From assembly GCA_949987565.1 (NCBI GenBank), contig OX465104.1, forward strand, positions 4,927,248-4,991,247: a stretch of 64,000 bases of DNA, in the 5' to 3' direction. Positions 1,125 through 41,200 of the stretch are shown here, piece after piece. Under the pieces are notes generated by a model, which saw nothing but the letters and a program-made list of their open reading frames with translations, was not told the DNA's origin and made no database searches. How positions within the stretch are numbered: position 1 is the first letter of the stretch; each line of letters starts with the position of its first letter. The stretch is from Luidia sarsii (taxonomy: Eukaryota; Echinodermata; Asteroidea; Paxillosida; Luidiidae). Made by a program: the position numbers and the translations under genes.

Positions 1125-4019
<2,895 letters not shown>

Positions 4020-4754
4020 CTGTCGATTATGACAAGATTTTCATAAACAAAACAATAAAAAAATCTGCATTTTTAGAAAGCAGAAGGGAAAGTATCAGAC
4101 AAAATTTAAAATACGTACAGGGTTTACATTCACCCTTACTCATTCAAAATGTTACAAACTATGACGTCCATGATTCTACAAATCTGCAAAATTTAGTTAG
4201 AGGGCCTGCCTGATGTTTTAATCCCAGCAGGGCCTTTAAAGGTCTTTGAGAAGAGTCCTGCTACTTCAGTACTTGGCAATACTTGCTAGGATCGAATTTT
4301 GCAAGTAACGTCAAACGTCAGGTACCGTAAACATCTAATTTGGCAAGATTTTAACAAATAATAATAATTTAAGGTGATATACAAAAATGTTGCAAACTGC
4401 TTACTGACTAAAATTACCAAAATGTAAATCTAAAATTTAGTGGGCCTGACGTTTCGATCCTAGCAGGACCTTTCTCAAAGGCAGAGTGACAAGGACAAAA
4501 CAGATACATGTACACGAAGGAAGGGGGGAGAGTGAATAGGACGCGGATGAGAAACAAAGGACAAAGAGTGAAGCTGGTAGGGAGAGATCAAAGGGAAGGG
4601 CAGGGGGTAGGGTAGGGATTAATGAGAGGAGGGGGAAAGATCAAAGAGAAGGGCAAGGAGTGGGGTAGGGATTAGTGACAATAGGGGGAAAGATCAAAGA
4701 GAAAAGTGTGAAGGACTGAACACAAAAGAAGGATTATCAGAAAGCTGCATGGTG

Positions 4755-7472
4755 TTAGTCATTACCCTCCTGGATGTTGAGACCATGTGGTTGAATAGTC
4801 CGAAGACGCTTCATCCACATTTTCTCACGGCTAAGACGGACAGCATTATTACGGTGACCAAGTGATTCTATGCCCAGTACACTCATATCTGATATCGAAT
4901 GATCAGGGAGATTGAAGTGATACCCAACAGGGGTGTCCATTTTACCAGTTTTGATAGTAGACCTATGGCCATAGATACGTTTTTTGAGGGTGTTTTTGGT
5001 CTCGCCAACATACTGAATATTACAAACTCTACAAGAGATGAGGTATATGATGTTTGAGGTAGTGCACGTGATAGAGCCATAGGTCGTGTGGGTAGTTCCA
5101 GAAGAATGTCCATTGAAAGAGTCTATTTCCTTGACATGTGTCTTGCAAACAATGCATTTCGAGGTACACTTAAATGTACCAAATTTGGTTGGAGGTGAAG
5201 AGTCCAAAGGGGGAACCTCTGCTCGGACAATTAAGTCACGCAGGTTACGGGGGCGCCTGAAAGCCAAAACAGGCGAATTAGGAATGGCTTCAGCCAGACG
5301 ATCCGAAGTGTGGAGAATATGGTGGTTTTCCTTAGTTATCTTCCTGAGAGGAGGAAGAGAGGGGTGGTAGGAAGTAACCAAGGGAACCTTGGGCTTGTCC
5401 TTGGGACCTGGTGGCTTTTGTTTTAGTGCCGAACTTCTGGGAATGGAAAAGACTTTAGCAATGGAGTTCTTCACTTGGCGAGAACTATAGCCTCTGGCAA
5501 CCAAGTTACTGGCCAATACACGTGTATGGCGGCGAAAGTCAGACTCATTGGAACATATACGCCTCAATCTGAGGGCCTGGCTGTAAGCTATACCAGTCTT
5601 ACAGTGTCTAGGGTGACAACTGGAGGAATGGAGATATTGATGAGTGTCGGTGGGCTTAGAATACAAGTCAGTAGTGAGTGTATTGAGGTCTTTCCGGACG
5701 GTGACGTCCAGAAAGTGGGTCTGTTGAAGAGACTGCTCCCATGTGAATTTGATGGTCCTATGGAAGGAATTGATGTGGTCAAAGAAAGCATGCAGGCTGC
5801 TGCCGTCCCTAGTCCAAATGAAGAAAACGTCATCTATGTATCTCCACCAAATCCAGGGACGGCATGGAGCCTCACTGAGCATGCGTTCCTCAAGGTCACC
5901 CATGAAGAGGCATGCAAAGGAAGGAGCCATGCGCGTACCCATGGCAGTGCCATGCACTTGAAGATAGTGCTTGCCAAGAAAGGAGAAATTATTCTTGGCC
6001 AGCACTAACCTCATGAGGGTGGTTATGTCGGAGATGGGTGGAGAAGACTGTTTTCCTTTGGCCAGGGCCGAGGAGCAAGCCTGAATGCCTTCTTCCTGGG
6101 GGATGTTAGTGTACAGAGAGGAAACGTCAATAGTACCAATTATGGCAGTGGCAGGAATTTGATCCTTGATACTTTCCAACTTTCGCAGAAAATCGGGAGT
6201 GTCATGGACGTATGAGGGGATTTGGGGAACCAAGGGTTTGAGAAAAGAGTCAATGAAAAGAGATATGTGTTCCGTAGGTGAACCATTGCCAGAGATGATG
6301 GGTCTGCCTGGGTTGTTGGCCTTGTGAATTTTTGGGAGAAGGTAGAATCTGGCAGTTCTACAATTGATCGGTGATAGAAATCTGTGAGCTTTTTTACTCA
6401 AATGATCACGTGATCGCATGTCATCCAAAACTTCCTGAATTTGCTCTGAAAATTTGCCAGTGGGGTTAGAGTCCAGACATTTGTAATGCTGGGGATTGTT
6501 GAGTTGGCGATTGGCTTCATCAATATATTTTTGGCGATCCATGATTACTACGGCTGACCCTTTATCTGCTGGCTTGATAATGATGTCACCGCGGGAACGT
6601 AAAGTGTTGAGAGCAAGACGTTCTTCCCTAGGGAGATTGTCGTGGGGCTTACGGGTAAGATGAGAGGAGTTGGAAACTTGAGAACTGACTGCTTGCACAT
6701 ACGTTTCAAGGGCTGGAACACGGTTCTTGGGGGGGACCCAGGTGCTTTTTACACGGAAAGGTTCTTCTTTACGGGAGCCAGAATCGATGAAGAACTCAGT
6801 CAGACGAAGTCTGCGGTAATACTCAGTGAGATCTTGACTGAGCATTACTTGGTCAACTTTGGGGGGAGTAGGACAAAAGTTCAAGCCCTTGGAAAGTAAC
6901 GTATGCTCTGCGTCAGTTAGAGAAGAAGAGGAAAGGTTGACAACAGTGTTAGTGGGGGGTAAAGGTGTAGACTGGGGACTGCGTCTGAAGCGGTTGTGTC
7001 TGCGTTGTTTGGCAACAAGGCCACCAATCTTCTTGTTTCTCCTGTCGGTGAGAAGAGAATTGAGGTTAGAGAGACCTTTCTCAATCTCATCACTGAGATC
7101 CTTGTACTGGCTTTCAGAACAGCTGGAGCGTAGTTTTGAGTCCAGATTAGCAATGTCCTGGTGGACAGCCTGAAGGGTGATTTCACATTGCTCAGAGAGG
7201 ACCTTGATGAGCTGAATGGAAGCACTATAAAGAATTTGATTCCATTTTTTCTGTAGGTTGGGGGAGAGTTTTCCAATTTGGGGGGTGTGAGATATCTGTA
7301 AGCCAGTAGGGATCAGGCGAGAGACTGAGAAAAAGTTGTAGTTGTCTTGATGGAAAGTGTACCGAAGAGCCTTTTCTTGCAGTTTCCTAAGTTGAAAGAA
7401 ACAGTTAGGGTTGTTCATGTTAGTAAGAGCAAAAAACAAGAGACAAACACAGAACGCAGACTTACATACCAA
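4755..7472 (-). CDS. Penelope-like reverse transcriptase with GIY-YIG endonuclease, left copy
   Basis: 905 codons, intact. Same architecture as the right copy: N-terminal region, IIKPADKGSAVVIMD near residue 298, palm motif A (GTIDVSSLYTNIP, about 445), motif B (HGTAMGTRMAPSFACLF), YIDD catalytic box near 545, then a Cys/His cluster (CTSKCIVC) and GIY-YIG nuclease (IIYLISC...YVGETKNTLKKRIYGHR, about 807-838). It differs from the right copy at two residues seen directly, Ile for Phe near residue 229 and Ile for Val near 438. The product would prime reverse transcription at a nicked target. The ATG at 7472 gives the longest frame; Met19 is an alternative start. Confidence 0.95.
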   Translation of the reverse strand: MVCKSAFCVCLLFFALTNMNNPNCFFQLRKLQEKALRYTFHQDNYNFFSVSRLIPTGLQISHTPQIGKLSPNLQKKWNQILYSASIQLIKVLSEQCEITLQAVHQDIANLDSKLRSSCSESQYKDLSDEIEKGLSNLNSLLTDRRNKKIGGLVAKQRRHNRFRRSPQSTPLPPTNTVVNLSSSSLTDAEHTLLSKGLNFCPTPPKVDQVMLSQDLTEYYRRLRLTEFFIDSGSRKEEPFRVKSTWVPPKNRVPALETYVQAVSSQVSNSSHLTRKPHDNLPREERLALNTLRSRGDIIIKPADKGSAVVIMDRQKYIDEANRQLNNPQHYKCLDSNPTGKFSEQIQEVLDDMRSRDHLSKKAHRFLSPINCRTARFYLLPKIHKANNPGRPIISGNGSPTEHISLFIDSFLKPLVPQIPSYVHDTPDFLRKLESIKDQIPATAIIGTIDVSSLYTNIPQEEGIQACSSALAKGKQSSPPISDITTLMRLVLAKNNFSFLGKHYLQVHGTAMGTRMAPSFACLFMGDLEERMLSEAPCRPWIWWRYIDDVFFIWTRDGSSLHAFFDHINSFHRTIKFTWEQSLQQTHFLDVTVRKDLNTLTTDLYSKPTDTHQYLHSSSCHPRHCKTGIAYSQALRLRRICSNESDFRRHTRVLASNLVARGYSSRQVKNSIAKVFSIPRSSALKQKPPGPKDKPKVPLVTSYHPSLPPLRKITKENHHILHTSDRLAEAIPNSPVLAFRRPRNLRDLIVRAEVPPLDSSPPTKFGTFKCTSKCIVCKTHVKEIDSFNGHSSGTTHTTYGSITCTTSNIIYLISCRVCNIQYVGETKNTLKKRIYGHRSTIKTGKMDTPVGYHFNLPDHSISDMSVLGIESLGHRNNAVRLSREKMWMKRLRTIQPHGLNIQEGND

Positions 7473-7555
7473 CGGACGGACAGACTTACATACACACGTA
7501 GACAGGTCAGCAAGTTGCTGACCTGTCTACGTGTGTATGTAAGTCTGTCCGTCCG
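7473..7555. other. Palindrome centre between the two reverse transcriptase genes
   Basis: Both halves are complementary through GACAGGTCAGCAA-G-TTGCTGACCTGTC, with a single unpaired base at 7514. No TATA motif is visible. A transcript reading across would fold into one very long double-stranded RNA. Confidence 0.85.
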
Positions 7556-10273
7556 TTGGTATGTAAGTCTGCGTTCTGTGTTTGTCTCTTGTTTTTTGCT
7601 CTTACTAACATGAACAACCCTAACTGTTTCTTTCAACTTAGGAAACTGCAAGAAAAGGCTCTTCGGTACACTTTCCATCAAGACAACTACAACTTTTTCT
7701 CAGTCTCTCGCCTGATCCCTACTGGCTTACAGATATCTCACACCCCCCAAATTGGAAAACTCTCCCCCAACCTACAGAAAAAATGGAATCAAATTCTTTA
7801 TAGTGCTTCCATTCAGCTCATCAAGGTCCTCTCTGAGCAATGTGAAATCACCCTTCAGGCTGTCCACCAGGACATTGCTAATCTGGACTCAAAACTACGC
7901 TCCAGCTGTTCTGAAAGCCAGTACAAGGATCTCAGTGATGAGATTGAGAAAGGTCTCTCTAACCTCAATTCTCTTCTCACCGACAGGAGAAACAAGAAGA
8001 TTGGTGGCCTTGTTGCCAAACAACGCAGACACAACCGCTTCAGACGCAGTCCCCAGTCTACACCTTTACCCCCCACTAACACTGTTGTCAACCTTTCCTC
8101 TTCTTCTCTAACTGACGCAGAGCATACGTTACTTTCCAAGGGCTTGAACTTTTGTCCTACTCCCCCCAAAGTTGACCAAGTAATGCTCAGTCAAGATCTC
8201 ACTGAGTATTACCGCAGACTTCGTCTGACTGAGTTCTTCTTCGATTCTGGCTCCCGTAAAGAAGAACCTTTCCGTGTAAAAAGCACCTGGGTCCCCCCCA
8301 AGAACCGTGTTCCAGCCCTTGAAACGTATGTGCAAGCAGTCAGTTCTCAAGTTTCCAACTCCTCTCATCTTACCCGTAAGCCCCACGACAATCTCCCTAG
8401 GGAAGAACGTCTTGCTCTCAACACTTTACGTTCCCGCGGTGACATCATTATCAAGCCAGCAGATAAAGGGTCAGCCGTAGTAATCATGGATCGCCAAAAA
8501 TATATTGATGAAGCCAATCGCCAACTCAACAATCCCCAGCATTACAAATGTCTGGACTCTAACCCCACTGGCAAATTTTCAGAGCAAATTCAGGAAGTTT
8601 TGGATGACATGCGATCACGTGATCATTTGAGTAAAAAAGCTCACAGATTTCTATCACCGATCAATTGTAGAACTGCCAGATTCTACCTTCTCCCGAAAAT
8701 TCACAAGGCCAACAACCCAGGCAGACCCATCATCTCTGGCAATGGTTCACCTACGGAACACATATCTCTTTTCATTGACTCTTTTCTCAAACCCTTGGTT
8801 CCCCAAATCCCCTCATACGTCCATGACACTCCCGATTTTCTGCGAAAGTTGGAAAGTGTCAAGGATCAAATTCCTGCCACTGCCATAATTGGTACTATTG
8901 ACGTTTCCTCTCTGTACACTAACATCCCCCAGGAAGAAGGCATTCAGGCTTGCTCCTCGGCCCTGGCCAAAGGAAAACAGTCTTCTCCACCCATCTCCGA
9001 CATAACCACCCTCATGAGGTTAGTGCTGGCCAAGAATAATTTCTCCTTTCTTGGCAAGCACTATCTTCAAGTGCATGGCACTGCCATGGGTACGCGCATG
9101 GCTCCTTCCTTTGCATGCCTCTTCATGGGTGACCTTGAGGAACGCATGCTCAGTGAGGCTCCATGCCGTCCCTGGATTTGGTGGAGATACATAGATGACG
9201 TTTTCTTCATTTGGACTAGGGACGGCAGCAGCCTGCATGCTTTCTTTGACCACATCAATTCCTTCCATAGGACCATCAAATTCACATGGGAGCAGTCTCT
9301 TCAACAGACCCACTTTCTGGACGTCACCGTCCGGAAAGACCTCAATACACTCACTACTGACTTGTATTCTAAGCCCACCGACACTCATCAATATCTCCAT
9401 TCCTCCAGTTGTCACCCTAGACACTGTAAGACTGGTATAGCTTACAGCCAGGCCCTCAGATTGAGGCGTATATGTTCCAATGAGTCTGACTTTCGCCGCC
9501 ATACACGTGTATTGGCCAGTAACTTGGTTGCCAGAGGCTATAGTTCTCGCCAAGTGAAGAACTCCATTGCTAAAGTCTTTTCCATTCCCAGAAGTTCGGC
9601 ACTAAAACAAAAGCCACCAGGTCCCAAGGACAAGCCCAAGGTTCCCTTGGTTACTTCCTACCACCCCTCTCTTCCTCCTCTCAGGAAGATAACTAAGGAA
9701 AACCACCATATTCTCCACACTTCGGATCGTCTGGCTGAAGCCATTCCTAATTCGCCTGTTTTGGCTTTCAGGCGCCCCCGTAACCTGCGTGACTTAATTG
9801 TCCGAGCAGAGGTTCCCCCTTTGGACTCTTCACCTCCAACCAAATTTGGTACATTTAAGTGTACCTCGAAATGCATTGTTTGCAAGACACATGTCAAGGA
9901 AATAGACTCTTTCAATGGACATTCTTCTGGAACTACCCACACGACCTATGGCTCTATCACGTGCACTACCTCAAACATCATATACCTCATCTCTTGTAGA
10001 GTTTGTAATATTCAGTATGTTGGCGAGACCAAAAACACCCTCAAAAAACGTATCTATGGCCATAGGTCTACTATCAAAACTGGTAAAATGGACACCCCTG
10101 TTGGGTATCACTTCAATCTCCCTGATCATTCGATATCAGATATGAGTGTACTGGGCATAGAATCACTTGGTCACCGTAATAATGCTGTCCGTCTTAGCCG
10201 TGAGAAAATGTGGATGAAGCGTCTTCGGACTATTCAACCACATGGTCTCAACATCCAGGAGGGTAATGACTAA
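7556..10273 (+). CDS. Penelope-like reverse transcriptase with GIY-YIG endonuclease, right copy
   Basis: Intact 905-codon frame, mirror image of the left copy. The reverse transcriptase core shows YIDDVFF (catalytic aspartates) and the LPKIHK motif typical of Penelope-like elements. The C-terminal endonuclease has the paired IIYLISC and YVGETKNTLKKR motifs with the Arg and Gly expected for GIY-YIG. Penelope-like elements are retroelements related to telomerase reverse transcriptase; those with this nuclease insert at many sites. The two start codons face away from each other across an 83-bp spacer, so any promoter must lie within the spacer or the arms. Confidence 0.95.
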   Translation: MVCKSAFCVCLLFFALTNMNNPNCFFQLRKLQEKALRYTFHQDNYNFFSVSRLIPTGLQISHTPQIGKLSPNLQKKWNQILYSASIQLIKVLSEQCEITLQAVHQDIANLDSKLRSSCSESQYKDLSDEIEKGLSNLNSLLTDRRNKKIGGLVAKQRRHNRFRRSPQSTPLPPTNTVVNLSSSSLTDAEHTLLSKGLNFCPTPPKVDQVMLSQDLTEYYRRLRLTEFFFDSGSRKEEPFRVKSTWVPPKNRVPALETYVQAVSSQVSNSSHLTRKPHDNLPREERLALNTLRSRGDIIIKPADKGSAVVIMDRQKYIDEANRQLNNPQHYKCLDSNPTGKFSEQIQEVLDDMRSRDHLSKKAHRFLSPINCRTARFYLLPKIHKANNPGRPIISGNGSPTEHISLFIDSFLKPLVPQIPSYVHDTPDFLRKLESVKDQIPATAIIGTIDVSSLYTNIPQEEGIQACSSALAKGKQSSPPISDITTLMRLVLAKNNFSFLGKHYLQVHGTAMGTRMAPSFACLFMGDLEERMLSEAPCRPWIWWRYIDDVFFIWTRDGSSLHAFFDHINSFHRTIKFTWEQSLQQTHFLDVTVRKDLNTLTTDLYSKPTDTHQYLHSSSCHPRHCKTGIAYSQALRLRRICSNESDFRRHTRVLASNLVARGYSSRQVKNSIAKVFSIPRSSALKQKPPGPKDKPKVPLVTSYHPSLPPLRKITKENHHILHTSDRLAEAIPNSPVLAFRRPRNLRDLIVRAEVPPLDSSPPTKFGTFKCTSKCIVCKTHVKEIDSFNGHSSGTTHTTYGSITCTTSNIIYLISCRVCNIQYVGETKNTLKKRIYGHRSTIKTGKMDTPVGYHFNLPDHSISDMSVLGIESLGHRNNAVRLSREKMWMKRLRTIQPHGLNIQEGND

Positions 10274-10611
10274 CACCATGCAGCTTTCTGATAATCCTTC
10301 TTTTGTGTTCAGTCCTTCACACTTTTCTCTTTGATCTTTCCCCCTATTGTCACTAATCCCTACCCCACTCCTTGCCCTTCTCTTTGATCTTTCCCCCTCC
10401 TCTCATTAATCCCTACCCTACCCCCTGCCCTTCCCTTTGATCTCTCCCTACCAGCTTCACTCTTTGTCCTTTGTTTCTCATCCGCGTCCTATTCACTCTC
10501 CCCCCTTCCTTCGTGTACATGTATCTGTTTTGTCCTTGTCACTCTGCCTTTGAGAAAGGTCCTGCTAGGATCGAAACGTCAGGCCCACTAAATTTTAGAA
10601 ATAATAATAAT

Positions 10612-20600: not shown

Positions 20601-23600
20601 ACTAATTTACAGGTCTAAAGCATTAATCTTTTCAACTCAAGACGCAAGAAACTCTCTAAACTTTGTTTAAAATTCAAAATAATGTTGTCAAATACATTGC
20701 TGTTATTGAAAACTTTCTTACCGCCATATACGGCTTGCATCCTGCATCCCTGGTCTTAGCGATGGAGTCTACCAGCTGTCCGCTGATGCCAAAGTCACAT
20801 AATTTGATGTTACCTTTGGTGTCTAGCAGGATATTCGATGGTTTCACATCTACTCAAAGATAAAGGAAGGAAAATAAGGGAATATTTTCACAGTAAGGCA
20901 AAATGGAAAAAATAATCAGTTTCTCCTCCCTGCTCGCATCTTTTTTTTTTGCCGCCAAATAATAATAATAATTTTTTTAAATCTAAAAAATATACACATT
21001 CAAAAAAAATTATTTGATTGATTTTCGATGTTTCCAGCCGTTGAACCTCGCACATGCACAGCCTATGTACATATTGCACCGTACTTAATAATGACTGGAT
21101 ATTACCGTAGACTACCTGTCTTTAGGCCTTTAGGGGGAAAAATATTTTGGGAAAAGGCCAACAAAAAAAAACCACAAAAAAGTGCCCGCATCCTCCTTTT
21201 TTCAAAAAGTTTTGATGAGAAACTAATTTTTTTTTTTTTTACTTGGCTCAACATGTAAAAATGTTGCTTACTGACTAAAATGACCAAAAAACGAAAATAA
21301 CAAAAATTAAAAGGGCCTAGCCTTTCGATCCTAGCTGGCCCTCCTAATTTTGGGAACATTTTTTTACATCAAGATGATACGATTAGCTACTGACTGAAAA
21401 TGATTTCAGATAAAAAAACAAAATATATACGCAAATCTCAAAAAATAAAAGGGCTTCATATTTCAACTTTCACAGAGGTATTTTAAAATTACAATCATTT
21501 TATAAAACTTCCTTTTGGTGTGGTACACAGAGATGGAAACAATGATGAACTGCTTTTCATACTAGAAAGTTAATTAAAGTACCCATGAAAGGAAAAGTAA
21601 AAACAAAGTCGCCCTGAGAATGATGATTACAAGCTTCTTCAAGACTCTTTCAACAGGATTTCTGAAAGGATTTCTAAAAGAGCATAAAAGTGCAATTTTG
21701 AGGGTTTCCATGATTTTTTATTTCTCTAACCACTTGCTTACCTCTGTGGATAATTGTGAGTTCCTCTTTCAGGTAATTCAGCGCTGTTACTGTCTGCAGA
21801 AGTGAATCAAATCATTAACAACAAAACTGTGAGGAGAGAAGCAGTCGCAGTGAACCATGGAGATTGATATAGTTTGGGAACTAGGCTGGCAATACTATTG
21901 TATTTGGAGTGCCAAAATGGCTGCCAGTCGCTTCAATACTAAGTAGACCATGGGAACAAGGCTAACAAACCAATTGTATTGGTAGTGCCAAAATGGCCGA
22001 CAGTGGCTTTAGTACTAAGTAGACCATGGGAACAAGGCTGGCAAACCAATTGTATTGGGAGTGCAAAAATGGCCGACAGTGGCTTCAGTTCTGAGTAGAC
22101 CCTGGGAACAAGGCTGACAAAGCTATTGTATTGGGAGTGCCAAAATGGCCGACAGTGGCTTCAGTTCTGAGTACCTAGACACTGGGATCAAGACGGGCAA
22201 TGCTTATTGCCTTAGGAGTGCCAAAATGGTACACAGTGGCTTCAACTATAAAATCACTTTGCAGTTCTGAGAGATCTCTGTTTCGGTTTTGTCAGGGCTT
22301 GGGGATGACCTTCAACATCCATCGTAAGATTTTTGGGCTGAATACTCACCGAGACTGTGACTTTGCCCAGGATAGCCTCTGGTATGCGGCTTTTAAGATT
22401 CTCACACACAAATTTGTAGAATTTATCTAATGAGGTGTCCATCAACTCCATGCAAATCCAACAATCTCCCTGCAAGCCAAATAAATAAATAAATCAGAGT
22501 GCATTAACAGAGGGTTTGATTTCTGCAGATACACAGCAGTTGATGGTTAAATCCCGGTCCAGTCAAAGTTTTCTTTGCCAATTTTCAAAATTTTAAGTCA
22601 TAATGATTATTTGAAAAAAATGGCAACAAAAAACCTTTGACTGGACCGGGATTTGAACCCGAAACCTCTGGTTTGTGTACCATTGCTCTTATCATCTGAG
22701 CTATCCAGCCCTTAGATGGTGGCCTCCTTAAATAATCAACTAGTCTCTGCCGGGGTGGGGGCAGCAGTCTGAAGCAATTCAACCATTAACTGCCAATTTT
22801 TCAATTTGTTCAAAATTGTTTGTTTCGCTTGATTTAAAAAAAATCTGCATCCACTTTGTGTGATCCCTGAGCTGCCGTAGCCAGGTTCACAACAATTGGT
22901 TTGTTTGCATCTGATTGAAAGTGGGGGTGTGATCCGTGGAGATATTCGGCAGTTCATGCTTATGACTGGCACCCCCATCCAGGCAAAGATACAGTAGTTG
23001 ACTATTAGGGAAGGCCCACACTTAAGGGCGGGCTAGCTCTGGTGGTAGAGCAATAGTCTCTCCTAAAACAAACAGGGTCATGACATTTTCAAGGTTTTTT
23101 CAGTGTTCAGTTTTTCAAGTGTATTTTCAGTTTTGATGATAGAAACAGAGGCCAACCTAATAAACCAAGGGCCAAGGCAATTAAACGTCCATGTCATATT
23201 AGACACGCTACCAGTGTTGTCACTTTTAAATCAATGTTAAAACCTTATGTTTAAAAAAGTGATGTACAAAAATGTTGCAAACTACTTACTGACTAAAATT
23301 ACCAAAATGCAAATCTCAAAAATTAGTGGGCCTGACGTTGCGATCCCAGCAGGACCTTTCTCAAAAGGTGTTTTATTAATTGGAAAACTCTGACGGTTGT
23401 AATTTTTGGGTGTGTTTCATCTTAAAATCTAATCAACACTATTGTATGTGTTTTTGTAATATTTTGTAAAATTTTGAAGAATTTGGGATCGAATTACTCT
23501 TGTAGATGTTTATGTTATTTTTGATATTGTAATGCGCTCTTGGACATTTTATGGAAGAAGCGCTATATAAGGTCAGTATTAAAGCGTTATTATTATTAAT

Positions 23601-26600
23601 GCTATTAAGCCCGACGCCATAATTTCTAAAAGTCTGTCAGCAATTCAAGTCCCTTACCTCTTTGAAAAGTGCACCATAGAATTTGATAATGCAAGGACAG
23701 TGATTGCTTCTCTTGACGACATCCAGATCCATCAATAACTGCTTCTGTTCCTTCTCATCAACTGTCGACCGGATTCTCTGTGAAAGGAAAAAAAAGACAA
23801 TGGAAAATGGTGGAAGTTTGGTCTTACAAAAGCAATACAGGTCGAACCGAGGAAGGAAAAACTGACTGGGAACTTTTGAACCATTTTGAAAAATGGCAAA
23901 GTAAATTAAAACTGAATAATTAATTAGTTTATAATATTTTCTAATAAATTTAAACAGATAGAGGAAAAACTGACTGGGAACTTTTGAACCATTTTGAAAA
24001 ACAGCAAAGTAAACTAAAACTGATTAATTAATTAATTTATAATATTTTCTAATAAATTCAAACAGATAAAGGAAAAACTGACAGGGAACTTTGGAACAAA
24101 TTGAAAAATAAAAAGACCCACAAAAATTAGACTGGACCAGAATTTGAACCAAAAAAGGTACTCGATTACTAAGCTTGGGCGGTATTGCATTTTCTGATGC
24201 CTTGGTGTCCTTGAAAACAATACCGCGGTATCACAGATGAAGGCAATTACGTCATCAAAAAGCTCTTGAGTTGCGGCAACTGTAATTCTAAGGCAATGCA
24301 AAAACCTGAAAGTGGGGCCAATTTGAGGTTGTTTTTTTCTTCGTGAAATTACCTAAATTTGATTACAATGATGATATCGATATCATTATGCAAAAGAATT
24401 ATTAAAAGAAACGATGTTTTATCATTTAAGGAATATGCTGATTTGTTTCTTGAATCCTGACAAGAATTTCCAGTGAAGACAGCGCGCCGCGCGTTTTCAT
24501 CCGAGAATGTCAGTCATAAATGTAGCTGGCCAAGCACTGACAATTTGGAGCAAGCTAAGTCCTGGTGGGATGGATATGAAGGCACAGTTATCTTACCTTG
24601 ACAGCCATGACTGTCTTGCTTCGAGTATGCAACATTTTACTGACAGAACCAAAAGCACCGCGACCAATCTCTCCTTTGTCGTCAAGATCCTCCGCTGTGA
24701 AGTCATAAATCTGAGAAGATTGGGAAAGATTGAAAACAAAACCATTGGCAAAGAAAACTTTGACTGGACCGGGATTGGGAAAGAGGCAATAATAAGGGAT
24801 ATCAGGGGGTTTTTTTTGTTTACATTTTTTTAGAACTATACATTGCATGTACCATTTCTAAATTCTGTCAGAAAGTTATATTTGAAAAAGTTTTTCTATT
24901 GGTTTTTTTTTTTTTTACACATGACATGCTAGCAATGGGAACAATTTTAGAACTACATAACATAACATGTATTTCTAAATTTTGTCAGGAAGTTATATTT
25001 GAACAAGAAAATCAGTTTTCTATTGGTTTTTTTTTTTTTTACATTTTTTCTATACATGACATGCAAGCAAAGGAAAGATTTTGAGAACTACATAACACGA
25101 TATAAACATGTATTTCTAAATTCTGTCAGAAAGTTATATTTGATCCGTTTTGAATCAATTTTCTATTGGGCTTTTTGGGCCGAAAGGAAGCAGAGGCCCA
25201 AATGCAATTTGAAAAAATTTCTGAAATCCATGGAAAAGGACACGAGATTTGTCACTTTCAATTTGGCAATAACTGTCCAGCCATGAGACACGTGGGTGTC
25301 TTTCCAGCGCTGTCTCACGGATCTAAGATGAAGACTGTTTCAGGTTCTTTACATACCTCTACCGGAGATATGCTTAGCTTGCCTATGGAGTCCAGACTAC
25401 GGGAACGCATTCTGTCACTGCAGGCAAAGACAATTTTAAACTTTTAACAAAAACAGAAAAATGAAATGAAAACCAGGGTGTGATCCCTGGGGTGGATTTC
25501 ACAAAGCCTTACGATGCATCGTAACTCAGCTTACGATGGATAACCCATCGTAAGTTGGGATAGGTCGTATGGTTTCGCCCATCATCTTGCAATTGATTGT
25601 AAGCTACGACGAGTTTGGTGAAATCGACCCCTGGAGATATACGGCAGTTCATGGTTAAATGCTTCTCACTGGCTCATGGCGCCCCCACTCAGGCGAAGAT
25701 AGATGACTGTATGGGAAGGCCACCATCTAAGGGCTGGATAGCTCAGATTGTAAGAGCACTGGTAAGTAGGGGTCTTCAGACTTGGGTTCAAGTCCTGTCC
25801 AGTAAAGTTTTCTTTACAATTTTTCAAAATTTCAAGTAATGATGATAATGTTCCAAAAACTGCTTACTGACTAAAATGACCAAAAAGTGGATATCAAAAT
25901 TTATGAGAGTCTAGAGTTTTGATCCAAGCAGGACCTTTGCCTTTGAGAAAGGTCCTGCTAAGATAAAAACGTAAGGCCCTTCTCATTTTTAATAACAATA
26001 ATAATAATAGTCACGGGTATTTACTCAGTGTGCCTTTGCAAAATCGCTGTACAAAATATTATTATAAAATATCATTATAATAAAATTATTAAATATTATT
26101 TAATATAAATAAAAAGACCATGAGAAGGTCGTGAGAACACAAATATTTTACGTCGTTTCCTGAAAGTTTCCTGTTCTTACTCTTTGTACATAGTGTACCG
26201 GGTCTCACTCTAAAAGCTATTGTCCTGTTTTAGTCCGTTTGTAGTTAGTAGTAGTAGTAGTTGTTGTTGTTTTCTTGACCAAGGGAAAGGTACAAAAGCT
26301 CTGCTTCACCTTTTTCCTTCATATTGACATCTTATAATATTACATATAATTACATACTTTCTGTAAGATATTTTGTTTATACATAAGCCTTGATGAATTG
26401 TATACCCAGGATGTCAATGTGGAAATAAATGTTGAATTGAATTGAATTGAAAATACTGACAGGAGAATCATTGCGGACGAAATGAGGACGGAATTGCACA
26501 GTTGGAGCTCCAGCTTTGGACCAGCTAACGAGAATGACCTTTCTTCAAAAGGTTTGGACCCAGTTGACATTGGGCACATGAATAAGCAGTTACATTAAGG

Positions 26601-29532: not shown

Positions 29533-30082
29533 ATTCAAGGCCCAATACAACAATCTGAATCTAGATCGCAAAACATCGAAGTCCACATATTATTTCCTTC
29601 TAAGTTCTAATTTAAAACACATAATAATTATTATGTAGATGGTCGTGATAGAATCCCCATGTTGAAATCTTACGGTGTGGGATGTTGTACGATTCTTCAT
29701 CGACAAATAGTGTATTACTCGCGAGTAATAAACTATTTCTTAAACTACAGAACGGTGCGAAAACCATGACGTTTATTTTACCTTCTTCTCATTTCTCAGA
29801 TTACCATTTTGAGGTAAAATCTTCGCAGGATTTTTTTTTTAATGTTTAATGGTTTAAAGTGATATACAAAAATGTTGCAAACTGCTTACTGACTAAAATT
29901 ACCAAAATGTAAATCTTAAAATTTAGTGGGCCTGACGTTTCGATCCTAGCAGGACCTTTCTCTGCCTTTGAGAAAGGTCCTGCTAGGATCGAAACGTCAG
30001 GCCAACTAAATTTTTAGGTTTAATGGTTTAACACACAAAGTCTGTTGTGTGGCAATCTTTTGACCTTTACCGATGTTCCATA
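29533..30082. mobile_element. TTAAAGGCCC-family inverted-repeat element, interrupted
   Basis: Diverged copy of 13224-13603. It shares TTTATTACTCGCGAGT.ATAAAC and the GTTTAATGGTTTAA...GTGTGGCAATC stretch, split by the Penelope hairpin. Confidence 0.8.
29858..30017. mobile_element. Miniature Penelope hairpin with 14-bp duplication and known empty site
   Basis: Extension AGTGATATACAAAAATGTTG..., then arms GTGGGCCTGACGTTTCGATC and CGAAACGTCAGGCC, ending AAATTTTTAG. GTTTAATGGTTTAA occurs at 29844-29857 and 30018-30031, and once at 13536-13549 in the uninterrupted relative. Confidence 0.95.
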
Positions 30083-31712: not shown

Positions 31713-32154
31713 CCCAGCTGACCGCCCTTGAGTTGCGGACCAGCAAGACAAGACGCTCACACGACATATCAATACGCACGCAAGTTACGGGCGGAGAAAG
31801 GTGCACAGCGTCCGTAAGCTATGAGCGGATCAATGGGGCTGCATTTCCGCAAGGGCGTTGCGCCAATCAGCATACCATTTTCTGAAATCCGGATTTTGAT
31901 TTATATGAATCGGCGACCAACGACTTCAATGGTCAAGGCTAGGACCGTTCCATCAGCCACCGGAACGCGCAACCGAGATTCATGGGGATTAGCAACTCCG
32001 CTGATCAACCGATCAATTAGCATAGACCCTAATGACTGTACGCCCTTGGCCTATTGCGAATAATGTTCGCCCCTTTGTGTTACTTGCAATACATTATCTT
32101 CGTGCAGAAACAAAACTATTATATCTTAACAATAATTTATACTACTTTTCTTAA

Positions 32155-32370
32155 AAGTTAGAGGGCCTGACGTTTTGATCCAAGCAGGACCAAAAGTTAG
32201 AGGGCCTGACGTTTCGATCCTAGCAGGACCAACAGTTAGAGGGCCGGACGTTTCGATCCTAGCAGGACCTTTCTCAAAGGTCCTGCTAGGATCGAAACGT
32301 CAGGCCCTCTAACTTTTCAGATTTATTATTGCATGTCATTTTAGTCAGTGAGCAGATTGCAGCATTTGTT
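32155..32370. mobile_element. Penelope core trimer plus inverted arm
   Basis: Three direct copies of AGTTAGAGGGCCTGACGTTT.GATCC.AGCAGGACC in tandem (about 40-bp spacing), then one inverted copy ending GGCCCTCTAACTTTTCAG and the TTTTAGTCAGTGAGCAG extension. Confidence 0.85.
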
Positions 32371-33404
32371 TTTGTATTTACTTCAATACTACTTTTAAGC
32401 GAATATTGCTTTCCAATAGTTTGACTTCAATTTCAACAATCCCGACGTCGACAAGACTTATGAATAATAATTATTGCCTCGACGGGAAGTGCCATTAATA
32501 TTTCACAATTTTTTTTTTCAATTACAATAGATGGGGAATTTTGAATAAATTATCTACGGCCTTCGCTTAACGGCTGTTCAGGCTCGACCGTACACATATA
32601 ACCAGTATCCACTTCATTACGGGTTCGACGCAGAGGACGGGTAGCGACGAAATTGACGGTTAAATTAGATTTCCTTGGGTACTTTAATTCAGACCAGCAT
32701 TTTCTCCCAGAGAGGCAAGAATCGTACCGTGTTGTCGTTACATACACTCAAATGCTCCTCGAGTTCTGAATCTAATCATCATTTTTGATTAAAACTAGAA
32801 ATTTGACAATTATCTCGTCGATTGGTATCTTTTGGAGTGTCAAAATGAAGGATGCGTTGTTTTAATTAAAGAATGCGTCGAGTGCAAATGAACTGGCAAT
32901 AAAATACAACTTCAGGAAACCAATCCGGCCTCGTTTTACCCCCAAAATAGACACAATTGTTAAGATGTTTTTAAATTTTACATGTAATTTGTGACTTTTT
33001 ATATCGGTTCTCAAAACTTCCTGTTTTGTTCACAAGCGGTGACAATAGGCCCTAAATCTGATTACGACTGAATAATTGAGCCCGCTTATTTCAAACCCCA
33101 TGGCCTTGCAAGTGATTAACAATCATTCACGTCTCCACTAAGTGCCTCGTATACACACACGACTCTCCAATGAAATTCCTTGTTTGTTTCGAAACCCAAT
33201 TCACATTAAAAACCTCCAATGCGATTGGACAGTGCGGGGAGCAGCTTTTGAACTCTCGTCCAATGAGCAGGCACATTTCAACTCACCAAAAACATCTCCA
33301 AACCCACTCTGGTAACCAATTTTGATTTTAGGAAAAAGATTAATAATTCATCACTGGAAGCGTTTTACAACCGCTTTCAATGTATTATATTAAATCCTCG
33401 ACGC

Positions 33405-33534: not shown

Positions 33535-35238
33535 GTTAGTGCGCTTGGGACATTGCAATAATAATTATTATCATATACCAACCCATCCATTATTGCTCAT
33601 TGTATACTGTGTGCAACATACTAGTGCATGACTGCATTGCTATTGACCAGTTCTTGCAGGAGGTGAACAGAGTCTGTTGGTATAACCGCAAAGTTTAAGA
33701 GACGTACACGAACATGTGTTTGTACAGTGTTTGTAAGCCGCGTTTCCACTGGACTAACATTTAACCGAGACGATGGTTAAATTTCCAATAGTCAAATTTG
33801 ACCGTCGTTCCCACTTGGACTTTTGAGTCGGTCAATTTAACCGAGATGATGGTTAAAGTAACCGAGCTGGCAAAACATATTTGTGCACAGTGCATGTACG
33901 CCGGGTCGCGTTTTACCGAGTGGTGCGTTTCCACATGGACTAATCGTAGTCTCGGTTACTTTGACCAAAATAAGTCCAGTGGAAACGCAGCTTTTCAGAG
34001 ATTTGAAGGTTTTCACAGTGAGAATATAGCAGAGTAAGTGATCGGTTTGCGGTAACCGGCCATGCAATTTCTCTTTTGTGAGTGTCTGTTGTTTCGGTTC
34101 TTTTCAGAACCACACATACTCACCCAATAAAAAAATGCACGGTGTTACCGCAAACCTATTTTTGCTGTTGTATGGTTACTCATTTACTTCCATTTGAACC
34201 CACACTTATTGTTTTGCAATATTTGCAATGAATTGCCATGCTAGTCCATCCATTAATGCTGTAGGGCCTATGCTGTGATGCAACACAATATTGCATAACT
34301 GCATTGCTGTTGACCATGGTCAGTTCTTGCAGGAGCTGGAAAAAGTCTAATTGCAGAACTCCGAAAGTTTAAAAGAGACCGACATTTCGGTGTATGGTTA
34401 CACATTTACTTCAACTGGGCCTATACTGATTGTCTTGTGCATAGCTATATACACTCACGGTTCCCCAGGACTTTGGGGATAAGCCTAACTCTTTTCATAT
34501 CTCAAACTTTAGTGGGCCTGACGTTTCGATCCTAGCGCGACCTTTCTCAGAGGCAGAGCACTCTGCCTTTGAGAAAGGTCCTGCTAGGATCGAAACGTCA
34601 GGCCCACTAAATTTTGAGATTTGCATTTTGGCAATTTTAGTCAGTAAGCAGTTTGCAACATTTGTGTATATCTCTTTTCATATTTCTTCAACATTTTCAT
34701 ATTAATTTTTTTTGTGTTCACTCCTCCACACTTCTCTCTTTGATCTTTCCCCCTCTTCTTACTAATCCCTTTCCCACTCCCTTCCGGCTTTGATCTCACC
34801 CTACTAGCTTTACTCTTTGTCCTTTGTTTGTCATCGATGTCCTATTCACTCTCTACCCCCTCTTGTATCTGTTTTGTCCTTGTCACACTGCCTTTGAGAA
34901 AGGTCCTGCTAGGATCGAAGCGTCCGACGGTCAGACCCACTAAAGTTTGAGATTCCCTCAATATGTTTTATAATTTTTGGGAATTCTACACACCAGTGTT
35001 GTCTAAAATTAGAAGATAACCTATTTCTTTGCAGTGTATTTTTTGTGGGTAATTATTTTATCAGCCAAACTTTGAAGAGAACTTTGATTTTCTTCTCTCC
35101 AGGTTTTTGTTGTTGGGGGTGCTTGTGTCGGTCGCTGTCAGCGATCTCTTCCAAGATGCCGAAGACATCAGGGCCGTGGGCAACATGGAGGATCTTCTCT
35201 TCAAGGAGGAGAAGGAGATGGCCTACTCCAATCCCGAG

Positions 35239-35271
<33 letters not shown>

Positions 35272-38200
35272 GCAAAGGATAAATGTGACATTGTACATCA
35301 ACTTCATATCAATTCATGTTTCAGTGCCCACGACCGCCACACTTTTTTTGGAAAAACAATGCGCCATTTTCAAAAGTTGCTTAACCATCGGAAACAATAG
35401 ATGCCTGTGAAATAAATCGATGAGTATATATACGTACACTGCTTGTATAACCGAGTTAACCTTGGCACAATCAGACGTCTACATGGCTTTTGGCTATTAT
35501 GGGTGCACTTATTCAAAACTATTGCAGAGATATATATTGAACGCTAATAATTAACGCTATCAAATAGCACCGATGTTGCTTTGGGAATGGGTATTAATTT
35601 GAATGAAGGGGATGTGACGCTGTGATCATATTAGGTCCTTGTCATTCTGACTTTGAGAAAGGTCCTGCTAGGATCGAAAGGTCATTCTGCCTTTGAGAAA
35701 GGTCCTGCTAGGATCAAAAGGTCATTCTGCCTTTGAGGAAGGTCCTGTTAAGATTGAATGGTCATTCTGCCTTTGAGAAAGGTCCTGCTAGGATCGAAAG
35801 ACGATTCTGCCTTTGAGAAAGGTCCTGCTAGGATCTAGGACCTGCTATGCAAATTGTTTTGAAGAAGATTTGAAATTGTTTTGAAGACGATTTGAATTTT
35901 TTTGAGGAAGATTTGAAATTGTTTTGAAGATGATTTGAATTTTTATGGAAGAAATTTGGAACATTTTTCGAAGGAGTTTGGAACATTTATTTGAAAGAAG
36001 TTTGGAACATTTTTGAAAGAAGTTTGGAAAAAAATTATTCCTTCAAAATTAAATGGAGAAATAATTGATTTTTTTTATGACTGTAGAGAGGAGTCCCAAT
36101 GCTGTGTTGAACCAGTTCAACAGTGTCAAGCATTCACCGATGAACGTGCGGAAACTTGAGATGTATCTGAGGGAACTTGAAGACGCCGAACAGCAAGTTA
36201 CTCGGTAAGTCACAACATCTTAGACAATTGAAATTTATAAGCCTGCAAGGATCGAAACGTCGGGCCCTCTAACTTTTGAGATTCATGCCTTGCAGGTCAT
36301 TTTAGTCAGTGAGCAGTTTACAACAGTTGTATGAATTAACTTATAAACCACCTTAGACAATATCAAGTTTAAGTGATATAAAATGTGACAAAGTTTTTAC
36401 TGACTTAAAAAATGCCCCCCCCCTAAAAAAAAATGCACATCTCAATTAGTGAGAGGGTCTGACACTATGAACATTTAAATCATGAAAATGGGGTGAAAAT
36501 GTCATTTCACCGTGAAACTAAAATAATACTGTGATTTCACGGCGCATTTTACAGTGAATTCACCGTGAAAAAAAATCGCCTCTCTGATCTGAGAAGGACA
36601 TCTTAAGGTCACTAAAGGTCACGTGAAAAAAACCGTGAATATAATTATAGTGCTGCAAGCTCCAGCCTTGAGGGATGGCTAATTCAATTATAAGTAGCCC
36701 CACCCCCCCCGCAGCCACGACAGACGTACTGTATGGTGTCCTTGTAACTGTCACTCCCAGATACTTTGAAACTGCCTCTAGCCATTTACAACCAGGAATG
36801 TGGCCTTGGAGACCACTTGCGAAAACGCTTTAGAAAATGCCGTGAAAACTATTGGCTAATTACTGTGCGCCGTGAAATAGTGGTGAAAACACTGCGAATT
36901 TTCTTTTCACGGCTAAATGACATTGTCAACCCGTTTTCACGGTTTACATGCTTCGTGCCTTTAAGAAAGATTCGGCTCAGATCAGAACGTCAGGCCCATC
37001 ATAATGTCTTGAGACAATGGGTCATGTGTATAAAAAAACCTAGAATTTACTTTTACTACCATTTTAGTAGCATTTACTCGTATTGATATGAATAAAAACC
37101 AAGATTATGTTTTTAATGGAAAGTAATTGCTAAATCCTAAAGGCGTCAACTTTTGTAGCATTGGCTAGACCTGAGCATTTGCTTGTTTTTGTATGAATAA
37201 CAAAAAAAGAGTGCTTCAGATGTTGAGTATTTACTTGTCGTTTTCTAAGACTGAGTCAGGGCAACCTTGAAAAGGAGAAGCAAATGCTAGTTCACAAAAT
37301 GGCAGCTGCGTTCAAGAATGAAATTCGGAAGGAAAAACTGGGTGCATGCCCCTATAGGAGGGAGTGTGCAGACTCCAAATACCTTGCTTGCATTGTGCAG
37401 ACGTGGAGTAATTGTCTCCATCACCTAGGTTTTCTGGATCGGAATCACTGCTGTACATTATCCGCCATATGTTGAAATTTGGTGTATAATTATAAACCAC
37501 ATCTCTTCAGCACCAGGCTGTTCGATTGGCGCGTTTGCGTGTGTACGTACGTACACCCATACTGTACATGTACACACACCCTTACACGCGTATACTTGTG
37601 GGGTATTTCCTTTGTTCTCGTGTACTAAAAAACACTCCCAGAAAAGCCTAATTCAAATCGCTCCCTTTCGAACCAGAATCACTTTCCTAGGCTGAAATTT
37701 GTAGCGAACGTCCCTTATATAATATAGTTCTATTTGCGACAGACAGATATTAAAACATGCCTTGAACATTTTTGAGTTAATTCCAAATAATCAGTTTCAT
37801 GAAAACCTTATGGGGTACCAAAAAAGTACCCCACAAGGAGCTGTCCCATTGTTCTGAGTACCCACCCATTGTTCCGGTACCCCACAACCCACCTTATGTA
37901 AGCCCATGTACAATGGAAACCATTCGGATGTGCGCTCAAGCATTTGCTACCATTTGCACCAGTAGATGCTTAACAGCAAAATGAACATTTTTATTCATAC
38001 TAATTCAAGCATTTACTTGTTCAAATTTCTTTTACTTGGTATAGTAAATGCTTCTGCTGTTTGCTTATACTTCCTAGAGTTTGGAAGTTATTTTTATAAA
38101 ATAATATGACACATTTTCCCATTACAAACCGTTAGACGATCTCAAAAATCTGACTGCAATTAGTTTTTACTTCATCATGACGTAAAATGTGAATACGGAA

Positions 38201-41200
38201 CGTGGATTGTATTGAAGCGCGTACAAAATTACAAATAAAATGGGTCAGTAAAATTCTAAGTGACCTTATTTTGCCCTTCTGCCCTTCTGCAAGGTACCCG
38301 ACGAATGGTTTCCTTGTGTCAATATAATAAAGTGCACTATGAACTACGTGTATCAAAGCACTGACGCATAGACCTAATGTATTATGTATGATCTGTATAA
38401 TATTGCAACCAATTGAATTAATTTCTCACTATACGTGTGGGGCAATTGTGTAGGTATTTTTATGCTATACCTGTTTAGTACAGCAATTTATACAAGACTA
38501 TAGTGGAATGGCTAACTTCATGATGGACACATGCTAAAATAACATATCGTTTAACTTGAGCAGCGTATAATTCCTTTCACTGGTAACCAGAACACAATAG
38601 GTAGGTTATCATGGGAAAAAACGTTGGTTCCCTTACAGGTTGACAAACCCACGTTACAGTACACCCCTGAGGTCCGTGTTGAATACATTGCTTAGTTCCC
38701 TGTGTAGTTTTATTCATTATTGGAAATCAAAAGAGATTGAAGGATAGGACTGAAAATGCAGAGTGGGCAAAGTATTTGCAGTCAAGTGACAGAATGTGGG
38801 TTAAACGATGAGTTAAACCTTTAAAAAGACATCAGGCTTTGTCCTCTGAAACTAAGGAATAGTCTTCAGTTTCACATTTTGTGGAGATTTATCAATAGAT
38901 TTGATCACTGCTTTGCTTCAGACAGACCTAATTCAAGAGTTTCAACAAATTCACGTTTAGTATTGTATGGGTTACGACGTCGACACAACACGAGGTTGAC
39001 AATAGTTCAGCCATACGGACGCCGGTAGGCGTAGGTGTAAGAGCGTGTGTTGTGTATAGCATACGCGCGAACCCTCCCTCTTGGCTGTCATTGGTCAAGA
39101 TCTTAAATTTAAAAAAACAAAGACCACGTGGCAATAGCGCGTATCTAACGCCTCATCCAACACGCAAGACAGGTAGCCATTGTTGTTCTATTCATCGCTT
39201 TCCGCTAAAATCGTACGACTCATTATATGGTACTGCAATCAATATGTGTGATCTTGATGAGCTTCCTTGCCGTCGACAGGCTCACAACCAATGGACCTTT
39301 CCCATGAAATATGCAAATTAGACCTAGCGCATGCGCTTAACTAAATTGGTGGGCAAGCGGGCTGCCAGCCAATCACAGTTTTCCACGGGCGTGCGCGCGT
39401 TCCTTCGCACTAACAGTTTGGCGTGCGGTCATTGGCTATTCAGCGTCTCCTACGCGCGTATTTCGAAACCTGCACGCAATGCGCACTCGTTTGCCCACCA
39501 ATTTATTAAAGCGCATGCGCCAGCTCTTATTTGCATATTTCATGGGAAAGGTCCATTTGCCCAGAGTTGGTCTAATTGTAAGCGGATTCTCATCCCTCCT
39601 TTAGCTAAGGCTACAGCTAAATTTTATGAACTCAAGGGGGTCCTTTTTGACAGGGAAGTACATATGCCCATTCGGACTAAAATACTTGAAGCATGTGTTC
39701 GTCCTAGACTAGCATATGCTACCCAATGCTGGAGGCCAAGTGAGAAAGAAATAAAAAGTCTTGAAAGTAATTGGTATGGTTTTCTAAGGCGAATGATCAA
39801 GGATGGATTCCGCAGGAAACCATCACTAGTAGAAGGCGAAATTAATCATGCCCTTTTCTTTGCTAATATTGATCTAGAGCGCATAACAAAAAGTCAACCA
39901 CTACGGGATTATATTAATGTCCAGTATCTGAAATACATAGCTCATATATGTCGTAGGGAAAATACAAATTTGACCAAGCTTAGTTTATTTTTTATCCCTA
40001 GAGTCCCATACTATCGAGATCCCTGGATAGGTATCTCAGGACTACTGGGTGATCTTTCTATTGAGCAGATTAAAAGAGAAACACAGTCGAAGACTGGTTT
40101 CACCAGGCTCCTAGGAGTCCTGACTCATATGAAGCCTAAAGCTTCAAAATGAGGACCTAAACTGTACTGTACTGTACTTTAAGGAAAAATGTAACCCAGC
40201 ACAACGACATGAAGAATATCCCACCAAAACACTTTTTCAGTAAACAACGCCTGAAGTTAAAGTATCTTCACAATTCGATTACAAATAAAAAAAAAATATA
40301 TTTTTTTTTGAAATTTTAAGTATTAGAGGATGTTATATTTTGATATCATTTGAAAGCTAATGGTATACTCTTTCACATCATTAGAAAACCACAAAATCTC
40401 AAAAGTGGGGTTATTCCTCATTATGCGATGCCGGGTCACAAATGTACATGGAAAAGAATTTCGTAACTCACACTGGATTTCATGCGCTGCTACCATGTAG
40501 AACCGAACGATGCAAGAGTCCCATTCCATACTACATGTACAGCCACTTATTGAATTCATTTTAGGATGTCACTTGGCTCTCTCGCTTCTCAGCCCCAAAG
40601 CAATACTGTAACTCAGTCCACCTTTTTATCATTATCTTTTTTTAAACTCCATTCTGACATTTAATTAACCAATTGTGTTTTTGCTTGCTGCGTAATTTAG
40701 TCACATGGTTCATGAGGGCAATGTGTGCAATGTTTGACAATGTTATTCTGATGAGATTTTATTTGCAATCGTAATGTATGTTTGTTTGTCTTTTAATTAT
40801 AACAATTTTAAAATTCTTGTGATTTGCCCATTGGCCACGAGAAGAATGCATTAAACCAGAATGAAATGAAATGAAATGAAATGAAACGAAACGAAACGAA
40901 ACGAAACGAAACGAAACGAAACGAAACGAAACGAAACGAGACGAGACGAGACGAGATGAGATGAGATGAGATGAGATGAGATGAGATGAGATGAGATAAG
41001 ATGAGATGAGATGAGATGAGATGAGATAAAATGAGATTAAATGAAACGAAACAAAACGAAACGAGATGAGATGAGATGAGATGAGATGAGATGAGATGAG
41101 ATGAGATGAGATGAGATGAGATGAGATGAGATGAGATGAGATGAGATGAGATGAGATGAGATGAGATGAGATGAGATGAGATGAGATGAGATGAGATGAG

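Follow-up and report, generated by a model that had tools for sequence, protein, structure and literature searches.

The window, that is, the whole stretch of 64,000 nucleotides analysed here (Luidia sarsii, assembly GCA_949987565.1, contig OX465104.1, positions 4,927,248 to 4,991,247), carries a 6.2-kb head-to-head palindrome (4371..10598) and a series of mini hairpins belonging to the same element. The two palindrome arms (4429-7513 and 7515-10599; 3085 nt each) are mismatched at 3/3085 positions and are therefore nearly, not exactly, perfect, and an additional stretch, the tail (4371-4428), is present on the left side only. Each arm holds one ORF of 905 aa, and the two ORFs point outwards (4755..7472, minus strand; 7556..10273, plus strand). 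The terminal repeat core in the right arm (10536..10596, plus strand) includes the motif TCACTCT with a putative RNA start (the A at 10541, which is q3028 in the numbering along the palindrome arm in sense orientation that is used below), a possible hammerhead-like fold and the proposed untailed start site of reverse transcription. The palindrome as a whole may be bounded by a 13-bp duplication (4356-4368 / 10599-10611), although the call is ambiguous in this AAT-rich DNA.

The reverse transcriptase (RT) domain of the right-arm ORF (residues 425-575) was matched by PF00078 with an E value of 1.3e-05 and 25.5 bits, which is under the curated cut-off of 29.6, and the GIY-YIG domain of the same ORF (residues 808-888) was matched by PF01541 with 25.0 bits (cut-off 22.6). 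A total of 858 protein homologues was obtained from 7,999 scored candidates; PF00078 is present in many of them, for example in P0002, which has both domains, and P0001 is not so marked, with a YIDD motif visible in it. Among the 120 matches listed of these 858, 15 carry an organism name, and seven of the 15, including the three best-scoring ones, are echinoderm (Apostichopus, Asterias, Diadema, Lytechinus), with amphioxus, newt, scallop and tick among the others. Since the ORF combines RT and GIY-YIG, and homologues with both domains exist, the family that comprises the palindrome and the hairpins is, judged by its sequence, a Penelope-like element (PLE); PLEs are often counted as a third class of eukaryotic retrotransposon. 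A Cys-rich stretch between RT and EN, CTSKCIVC, recalls Neptune as described in the sections of Arkhipova et al. 2013 (PMC3846280) drawn on here.

Hairpins in the window and across the genome

All five hairpins listed in the preliminary description are present as stated there: each consists of an extended (tailed) arm and a short arm, lies within a target-site duplication of its own, and has ends matching those of the 6.2-kb palindrome. The query hairpin (29858-30017) is flanked by the 14-bp duplication GTTTAATGGTTTAA (left, 29844..29857; right, 30018..30031). Its tail (29858..29917, minus strand), present on one arm only and homologous to palindrome positions 4371-4428, is followed by the tailed arm down to its inner end (29918..29962, antisense, minus strand) and by the untailed arm (29960..30017, sense, plus strand); the arms meet at the joint TTTCTCTGCCTTTGAGAAA (29957..29975) with a 3-nt overlap, CTC, and the untailed arm is the deeper one, reaching 16 vs 6 nt past the core. 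The other four are located at 349-525 (tail left; 8-bp duplication ATTATCAT, 341-348 / 526-533), 18895-19029 (tail right; 14-bp duplication TCAGTGAGAATGTA, 18881-18894 / 19030-19043), 34501-34671 (tail right; 12-bp duplication CTCTTTTCATAT, 34489-34500 / 34672-34683) and 42178-42339 (tail left; 12-bp duplication with 1 mismatch, TCTAGTGGTTTT / TCTTGTGGTTTT, 42166-42177 / 42340-42351).

Additionally, several copies absent from that list were found in the window. An insertion at 22-251 combines an untailed arm of 182 nt with a tail-only second arm within the 13-bp duplication CATTCAGGATGAC (9-21 / 252-264), and a hairpin at 32150-32385 has the untailed arm three times in tandem, plus one tailed arm, within the 11-bp duplication ATACTACTTTT (32139-32149 / 32386-32396). 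The hairpin at 53884-54016 has a truncated tail and no clear duplication, the copies at 1696-1838 and 25813-26078 are old, and untailed single arms occupy 20238-20477, 34735-34954 and 54040-54285. In total, the arm core gave 20 matches in the window at no more than 3 mismatches and 0 in 100 shuffles. The window also contains a 68-bp pyrimidine-rich tandem repeat (17770-18109) similar to the 3' untranslated region of the element (q2843-3052), further tandem repeats at 40781-41385, 48888-49276, 57000-57746, 58204-58761 and 60274-62607 (periods of ~10, 20, 67, 21 and 86 bp, respectively), and pieces of host genes at 46145-46864 and 59089-59802 with animal haem peroxidase and PI3/PI4 kinase domains.

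All genomic samples were taken from the one assembly that holds the window (470.9 Mb). The hairpin-query sample comprises 39 scored matches besides the query itself (L002-L008, L027-L058; 40 scored of 1,184 candidates) and is biased: with very common words skipped, its seeds came from the less common letters in the query. The blind sample consists of 18 places of 10 kb (L009-L026). The tail-selected sample, which leans to young, tailed copies, contains 39 copies (L059-L097) in which the 61-nt tail was matched fully or to 60 nt (40 scored of 862 candidates, the fortieth lying in the window), and the ORF-start sample contains L100, L101, L103 and L107-L110 together with the far ends L105 and L106 (40 scored of 238 candidates). 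L001, L098 and L099, which are window places, and L102 and L104, which are places of L101 and L103, were merged or dropped. Hairpin classes were assigned by simple scripts, and the core search, which missed L031, gave 48 hairpins with both arm cores (39 from the hairpin-query sample, 5 from the window and 4 from the blind places), 46 of them with a recognised tail. The tail-selected copies were divided into 22 hairpins, 16 copies with one arm and 1 unclear case. Copies of intermediate length with both arms, the search for which had been proposed in the preliminary description, were indeed found (L009:7937-8201, L092, L061, L097, L091). The blind places contained 26 family clusters in 175,505 bases, covering 3.4% of bases, when weak matches to the pyrimidine-rich part were excluded and pieces no more than 150 nt apart were merged; this corresponds by rough extrapolation to ~70,000 clusters per genome, old fragments and single arms included. 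An exact match search for the arm core in viral contigs gave none.

The tabulation of duplication lengths gave a median of 13 bp, with 83% in 12-15 bp and a range of 8-17 bp (n=59, hand-trimmed, for hairpins and two full-length copies, single-arm copies being excluded), and the duplications are AT-rich (72% AT vs 59% in the window). With flanks anchored at both ends, 37/46 tailed hairpins reached a duplication score of at least 10, compared with 2.4% of mispaired flanks; two rows of this set come from a single local duplication in L002. For the tail-selected hairpins the values were 18/22, with four lacking a duplication at this score, against 0.3%; for the single-arm copies of this sample, with the composite L062 and L065, which runs off its locus, excluded from the scoring, 7/15 reached the score, one of them with a T run. 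These data support the hairpin duplications as real insertion-type duplications.

Exactly one tail was found in 21/23 hairpins from the window and the blind places, in line with the optional tail of PLEs. Merging the double entry for window 32150-32385 and the triple entry for L022:5383-5799 reduced 26 rows to these 23 insertions, and the list was confined to hairpins whose arms lie at most 60 nt from each other, which excludes two in L010; several of the calls lie near the threshold of 14 (window 1696-1838 at 15, four others at 18-21). The two exceptions are L017, which scores 13, and 25813-26078, which scores 15 on its second side. If the start site were chosen independently for each arm, at most half of the hairpins would be one-tailed, and the observed 21/23 then has a binomial probability of ~3e-5. 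Moreover, a second tail was present in 0/22 tail-selected hairpins. The one-tail rule implies that two start sites are used one each. L030 is the sole clear two-tailed hairpin seen, and a search for a duplication around it gave none; together with the marginal 25813-26078 it breaks the rule and counts against the best model given below. At L022:5383-5799, three hairpins stand in tandem with one tail and similar short linkers between them.

Inner ends, joints and routes to a hairpin

The inner ends of the tailed arms in the tail-selected sample are sharply distributed: 30/36 lie at q3026-3043, 0 in the 26 nt of q3000-3025, and 6 deeper (L082, L095 and L097 were unmeasured, their tailed arm ending before the core). 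The inner ends of single-arm copies fall in the same zone. The edge falls at the A in TCACTCT, and a sharp edge fits an RNA 5' end at q3028 better than it fits deletions inside the palindrome. TCACTCT conforms to the initiator pattern YYANWYY, and the downstream promoter pattern RGWYV is matched by GGATC at +28 to +32; both matches were noticed after the fact. TCACT in the Adineta pLTR is named Inr-like in the corresponding part of PMC3846280.

The minimum free energy fold of the repeat contains hammerhead-like stems and GAAACGUC, without helix III, and its stability does not exceed that of shuffles (z -0.11); the CUGAUGA box in it is degenerate. A search of Rfam over 10300-10700 gave no match, hammerhead or other, at E <= 5, and the whole window at the gathering threshold gave two tRNAs only (minus strand, 22638-22710 and 50007-50079, 46.7 and 29.9 bits). 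The modelled fold thus hints only weakly at a hammerhead. The possibility that a hammerhead-cleaved RNA serves as the template was considered and rejected: 0/39 tailed arms of the tail-selected sample end at the cleavage position q3067/3068 expected from the motif, the nearest, L082 and L095, ending at q3062-3063. Five tandem 40-nt units at 35635-35835, satellite-like in appearance, span the putative RNA start and the hammerhead-like region of the family.

The joints between the arm cores are heterogeneous, with 32 distinct joints among 44 one-tailed hairpins; the second copy in L002 (a local duplication, which stayed in the duplication and arm-variant counts), L017, L030 and window 53933 were left out of this set. 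A 3-nt overlap occurs in 9/32 distinct joints vs 4% under a random-breakpoint model, 12/32 have an overlap of 0-2 nt, and 11/32 have extra or rearranged bases. Among 43 hairpins (the second L002 copy and L012 excluded), a shared joint does not go with greater similarity in the remaining sequence: pairs with equal joints have 0.083 differences per site and other pairs 0.080 (permutation p 0.68). The two arms of one copy are not more alike than arms of different copies (2.02 vs 2.11 differences), a result compatible with one template for both arms of a copy as well as with separate ones. The commonest joint recurs in 9/48 script-found hairpins, with 2 variants in addition, and in 4/22 of the tail-selected ones, where it carries a substitution in two cases. 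It also occurs as its mirror image, and both forms have the same GAG:CTC overlap, a symmetry that one would predict if either cDNA could use its 3' end as a primer on its partner. One complex joint, TTTCTCAAAGGCAGAGAAAGGTCTCTGCCTTTGAGAAA, is common to L076 and L096, which sit at different targets and differ there by one substitution in L096; this pair is the best candidate for inheritance of a joint and may leave room for a little of it. An arm-specific variant, an A after GTCAGGCC, was tried as a mark of a hairpin lineage and discarded, since it fits the seeding bias: in the hairpin-query sample it is present in 20/35 untailed arms vs 1/46 tailed arms, and elsewhere in 1/35 untailed arms (window, blind and tail-selected) and 2/34 tailed arms (tail-selected).

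These data bear on the preliminary description, in which the hairpins were taken for internally deleted palindromes mobilised in trans in a MITE-like manner. MITEs are small and non-coding, with inverted arms, target-site duplications and a high copy number. The hairpins, which have the same ends as the palindrome, resemble them in all of these respects and differ in their asymmetric ends, in duplications of 8-17 bp, in heterogeneous joints and in their parent, the ORF of which encodes RT and GIY-YIG and not the DNA transposase of a MITE parent. Propagation of such deleted units, through a transcribed hairpin master or as DNA, would agree with the recurrence of one joint and with the complex joint of L076 and L096. 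At the same time, the conserved deletion junction of MITE-like elements was not found: joints are mostly distinct, copies with equal joints are no more similar than others, the commonest joint has a mirror image, most measured tailed arms stop within an 18-nt zone instead of at varied deletion points, and the one arm-specific variant fits sampling bias. We therefore hold this route to be quite unlikely and do not retain the internal deletions or the MITE-like lifestyle; mobilisation in trans stands insofar as the minis have no coding sequence and, if mobile, must be served in trans. An internally deleted, palindromic and tandem derivative does exist (L100, G000:C6:11703634), with q112 fused to q2963, and it is a different thing from the minis. 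Erosion of centres is far less probable still. Long palindromes are known to be unstable, and inserted ones could later have lost their centres, leaving short arms; however, arm lengths would then be spread, single-arm copies share the zone of the hairpins, and a palindromic centre was found in just 2/40 scored ORF-start loci (of 238 candidates), the window's own and L100. Perfect palindromes can also be artefacts of assembly or of fold-back reads, which is the least probable origin of all in this case, since the palindrome stops at the element ends, its flanks differ and its tail is on one side only, and dozens of separately inserted small copies show the same plan.

Snap-back synthesis, the alternative already named in the preliminary description, supposes that the 3' end of one cDNA, or of an antisense RNA, loops onto its own strand and that copying of this strand yields the second arm; self-priming of PLEs on an antisense template was hypothesised by Arkhipova et al. 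2013 (PMC3846280), who, in the passages drawn on, called for discriminating experiments. A copied arm cannot outreach its template, and the outer end of the tailed arm is the longer one, so that under self-priming the tailed arm must be both the template and the deeper arm, whereas copies with a deeper untailed arm need two separately templated arms. Such a nesting test distinguishes self-priming from two separately templated cDNAs. Among the 32 distinct joints, the untailed arm is deeper in 20 (the joint of the query being of this kind), the tailed arm in 10, and the two are equal in 2; among 21 tail-selected hairpins, with L097 unscored, the numbers are 9, 8 and 4, with 7 in place of 9 without the doubtful L078 (deeper by 2 nt) and L081 (deeper only via a changed T run). 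The untailed arm is deeper by more than 100 nt in L061 and L097 and by ~220 nt in window 22-251, and L101 couples a 33-nt tailed arm to a ~3.3-kb copy with an untailed far end (read at the ends only). Snap-back would account for the palindromic nature of the joints, for joints like TTTCTCAAAGGCAGAGAAA (3 in the 48-hairpin set, 2 in the tail-selected sample) and the start of the L076/L096 joint, all of which resemble a fold-back on GAG:CTC, and for palindrome arms that end within 1 nt of each other and are almost identical. The joints of L050, L075, L076/L096 and L081 show apparent repeated strand switching, which makes a certain amount of self-copying probable; such joints, and more generally the 11/32 with extra or rearranged bases, count against the two-cDNA model given below. 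As the general route for this PLE family, self-priming is refuted by the nesting test; it is an unlikely source of the hairpins as a whole and may nonetheless have given rise to the large palindrome and to a smaller share of the joints.

Full-length-type copies and the proposed route

In 7/7 loci of the ORF-start sample (L100, L101, L103, L107-L110), the terminal repeat, with its edge, hammerhead-like fold and tail, stands directly before the ORF, as a PLE pseudo-LTR would; L100 among them is internally deleted, and L107, which has the same joint as L103 and lies nearby, is probably a local duplication of it. The ORF that follows the repeat starts with ATG TTG CTG TAT (MLLYPLVV), the N-terminus as in P0001. 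Ahead of the repeat, L109 and L110 have the end of another unit, consistent with a tandem arrangement, and L101 and L103 have an inverted arm. Reading of the ends showed the plan of the hairpins at both termini of two of these copies: L101 with L105 has a 33-nt tailed arm, the repeat, the ORF start and an untailed far end within the 13-bp duplication ACAAACAAGTCAT, and L103 with L106 has a 765-nt untailed arm, the repeat, the ORF start and a tailed far end within the 12-bp duplication GTTTTAAATTGT. Because the terminal repeat directly precedes the ORF, the RNA would carry both RT start sites near its own 5' end.

In our reading, to which we assign a probability of roughly 0.7, the mini hairpins are insertions made by the Penelope-like retrotransposon from two cDNAs that start at adjacent sites, are primed on opposite target strands and are joined by their inner ends. 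The RNA would contain two terminal repeats, one ahead of the ORF and a second at the far end of the RNA, each repeat comprising, in this order, the RNA start, the hammerhead-like fold and two adjacent RT start sites, untailed and tailed. A staggered break would be made in AT-rich DNA, and each target strand would prime one cDNA, one from the tailed and the other from the untailed site. The cDNAs would run inwards and be joined, often at a microhomology of a few nucleotides, and filling-in of the stagger would yield the ~13-bp duplication. Where the start sites beside the RNA 5' end are used, both cDNAs would be "strong-stop" products of ~115 nt (tailed) and ~57 nt (untailed), giving a mini hairpin; where one cDNA or both begin in the far repeat, a canonical element with one long and one short arm or a long palindrome would result; and where only one cDNA is kept, a single-arm copy would be left. 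We infer that both target strands act as primers, that the RNA begins at q3028, how the cDNAs are joined, and that the protein of the element itself does the work.

The window palindrome is a case of both arms running ~3 kb. It lacks the terminal repeat ahead of its ORF, unlike the seven loci above, and its arms stop no more than 1 nt apart at a place away from q3028, so that its arms may come from one broken template or its centre from self-copying. The near identity of its arms is not predicted by two independent cDNAs by themselves and counts against the two-cDNA reading.

More tentatively, and at somewhat less than even odds, PLE integration may typically be a process of two cDNAs and two start sites, in which the two subunits of the enzyme would divide the tailed and untailed sites one each on opposite strands. 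The length of the two cDNAs would then place minis, canonical inverted-pLTR elements and giant palindromes on one continuum, single arms would reflect one cDNA that was not kept, and most of what fills the genome would be strong-stop failures of an element that otherwise works. Given the 16/39 single-arm tail-selected copies (judged within 601 nt, some with long arms, so that a second arm could lie beyond) and the untailed single arms in the window, two cDNAs are common, not universal, and these one-armed copies count against the two-cDNA reading.

Relation to known elements

According to the parts of PMC3846280 drawn on here, PLEs are known to have a tail, an inverted pLTR and short duplications. 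As described there, Penelope of Adineta vaga resembles the present family in having RT and GIY-YIG in one ORF, pseudo-LTRs, an inverted pLTR, an optional tail on one inverted pLTR, palindromes at inverted junctions, short duplications (8-10 bp there) and cargo between pLTRs that is moved in trans. Its copies are few and often single, whereas most sampled copies of the present family are short and without an ORF, and a rough extrapolation puts their number in the tens of thousands; and the self-priming on an antisense template hypothesised for it is contradicted as a general route by the nesting test here.

In the 2024 in vitro study of a lizard PLE, Poseidon of Anolis carolinensis (PAc; PMC11167929), both target strands were cut and extended and RT started at two adjacent internal sites bounding the "tail", with later steps left unvalidated in the sections drawn on. 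PAc as presented there shares with the present family the two adjacent tail-bounding start sites, the cutting and extension of both strands and the AT-rich targets. At the same time, its start sites are found 111-118 bp into the ORF and not just upstream of the ATG, and no difference in start site between the strands was seen in vitro, whereas the hairpins here nearly always have one of each; this counts against the one-each model. Metazoan retrozymes and hammerhead repeats, as treated in the portions used of PMC7761336, are likewise short and non-coding; they carry hammerhead-type motifs and are thought to be moved by PLEs, but they are direct tandem repeats with circular RNA, whereas the copies here are inverted hairpins with no hammerhead reported by Rfam.

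The origin of the head-to-head inverted structures of PLEs is a standing puzzle, and many short, readable products turn it into statistics. The large population of ORF-less hairpins, their strong-stop reading, the one-each use of the start sites and the nesting test are added by the present work; no published strong-stop or miniature PLE hairpin was found in literature searches, whose coverage of PLEs had gaps. Note that such PLE hairpins could be mistaken for MITEs. Twin priming of LINEs, which produces 5' inversions, also involves two cDNAs from both target strands of one insertion joined by microhomology, as proposed for the hairpins here; in LINEs, however, it is a minority outcome with varied internal priming, whereas two fixed start sites are used in the present family.
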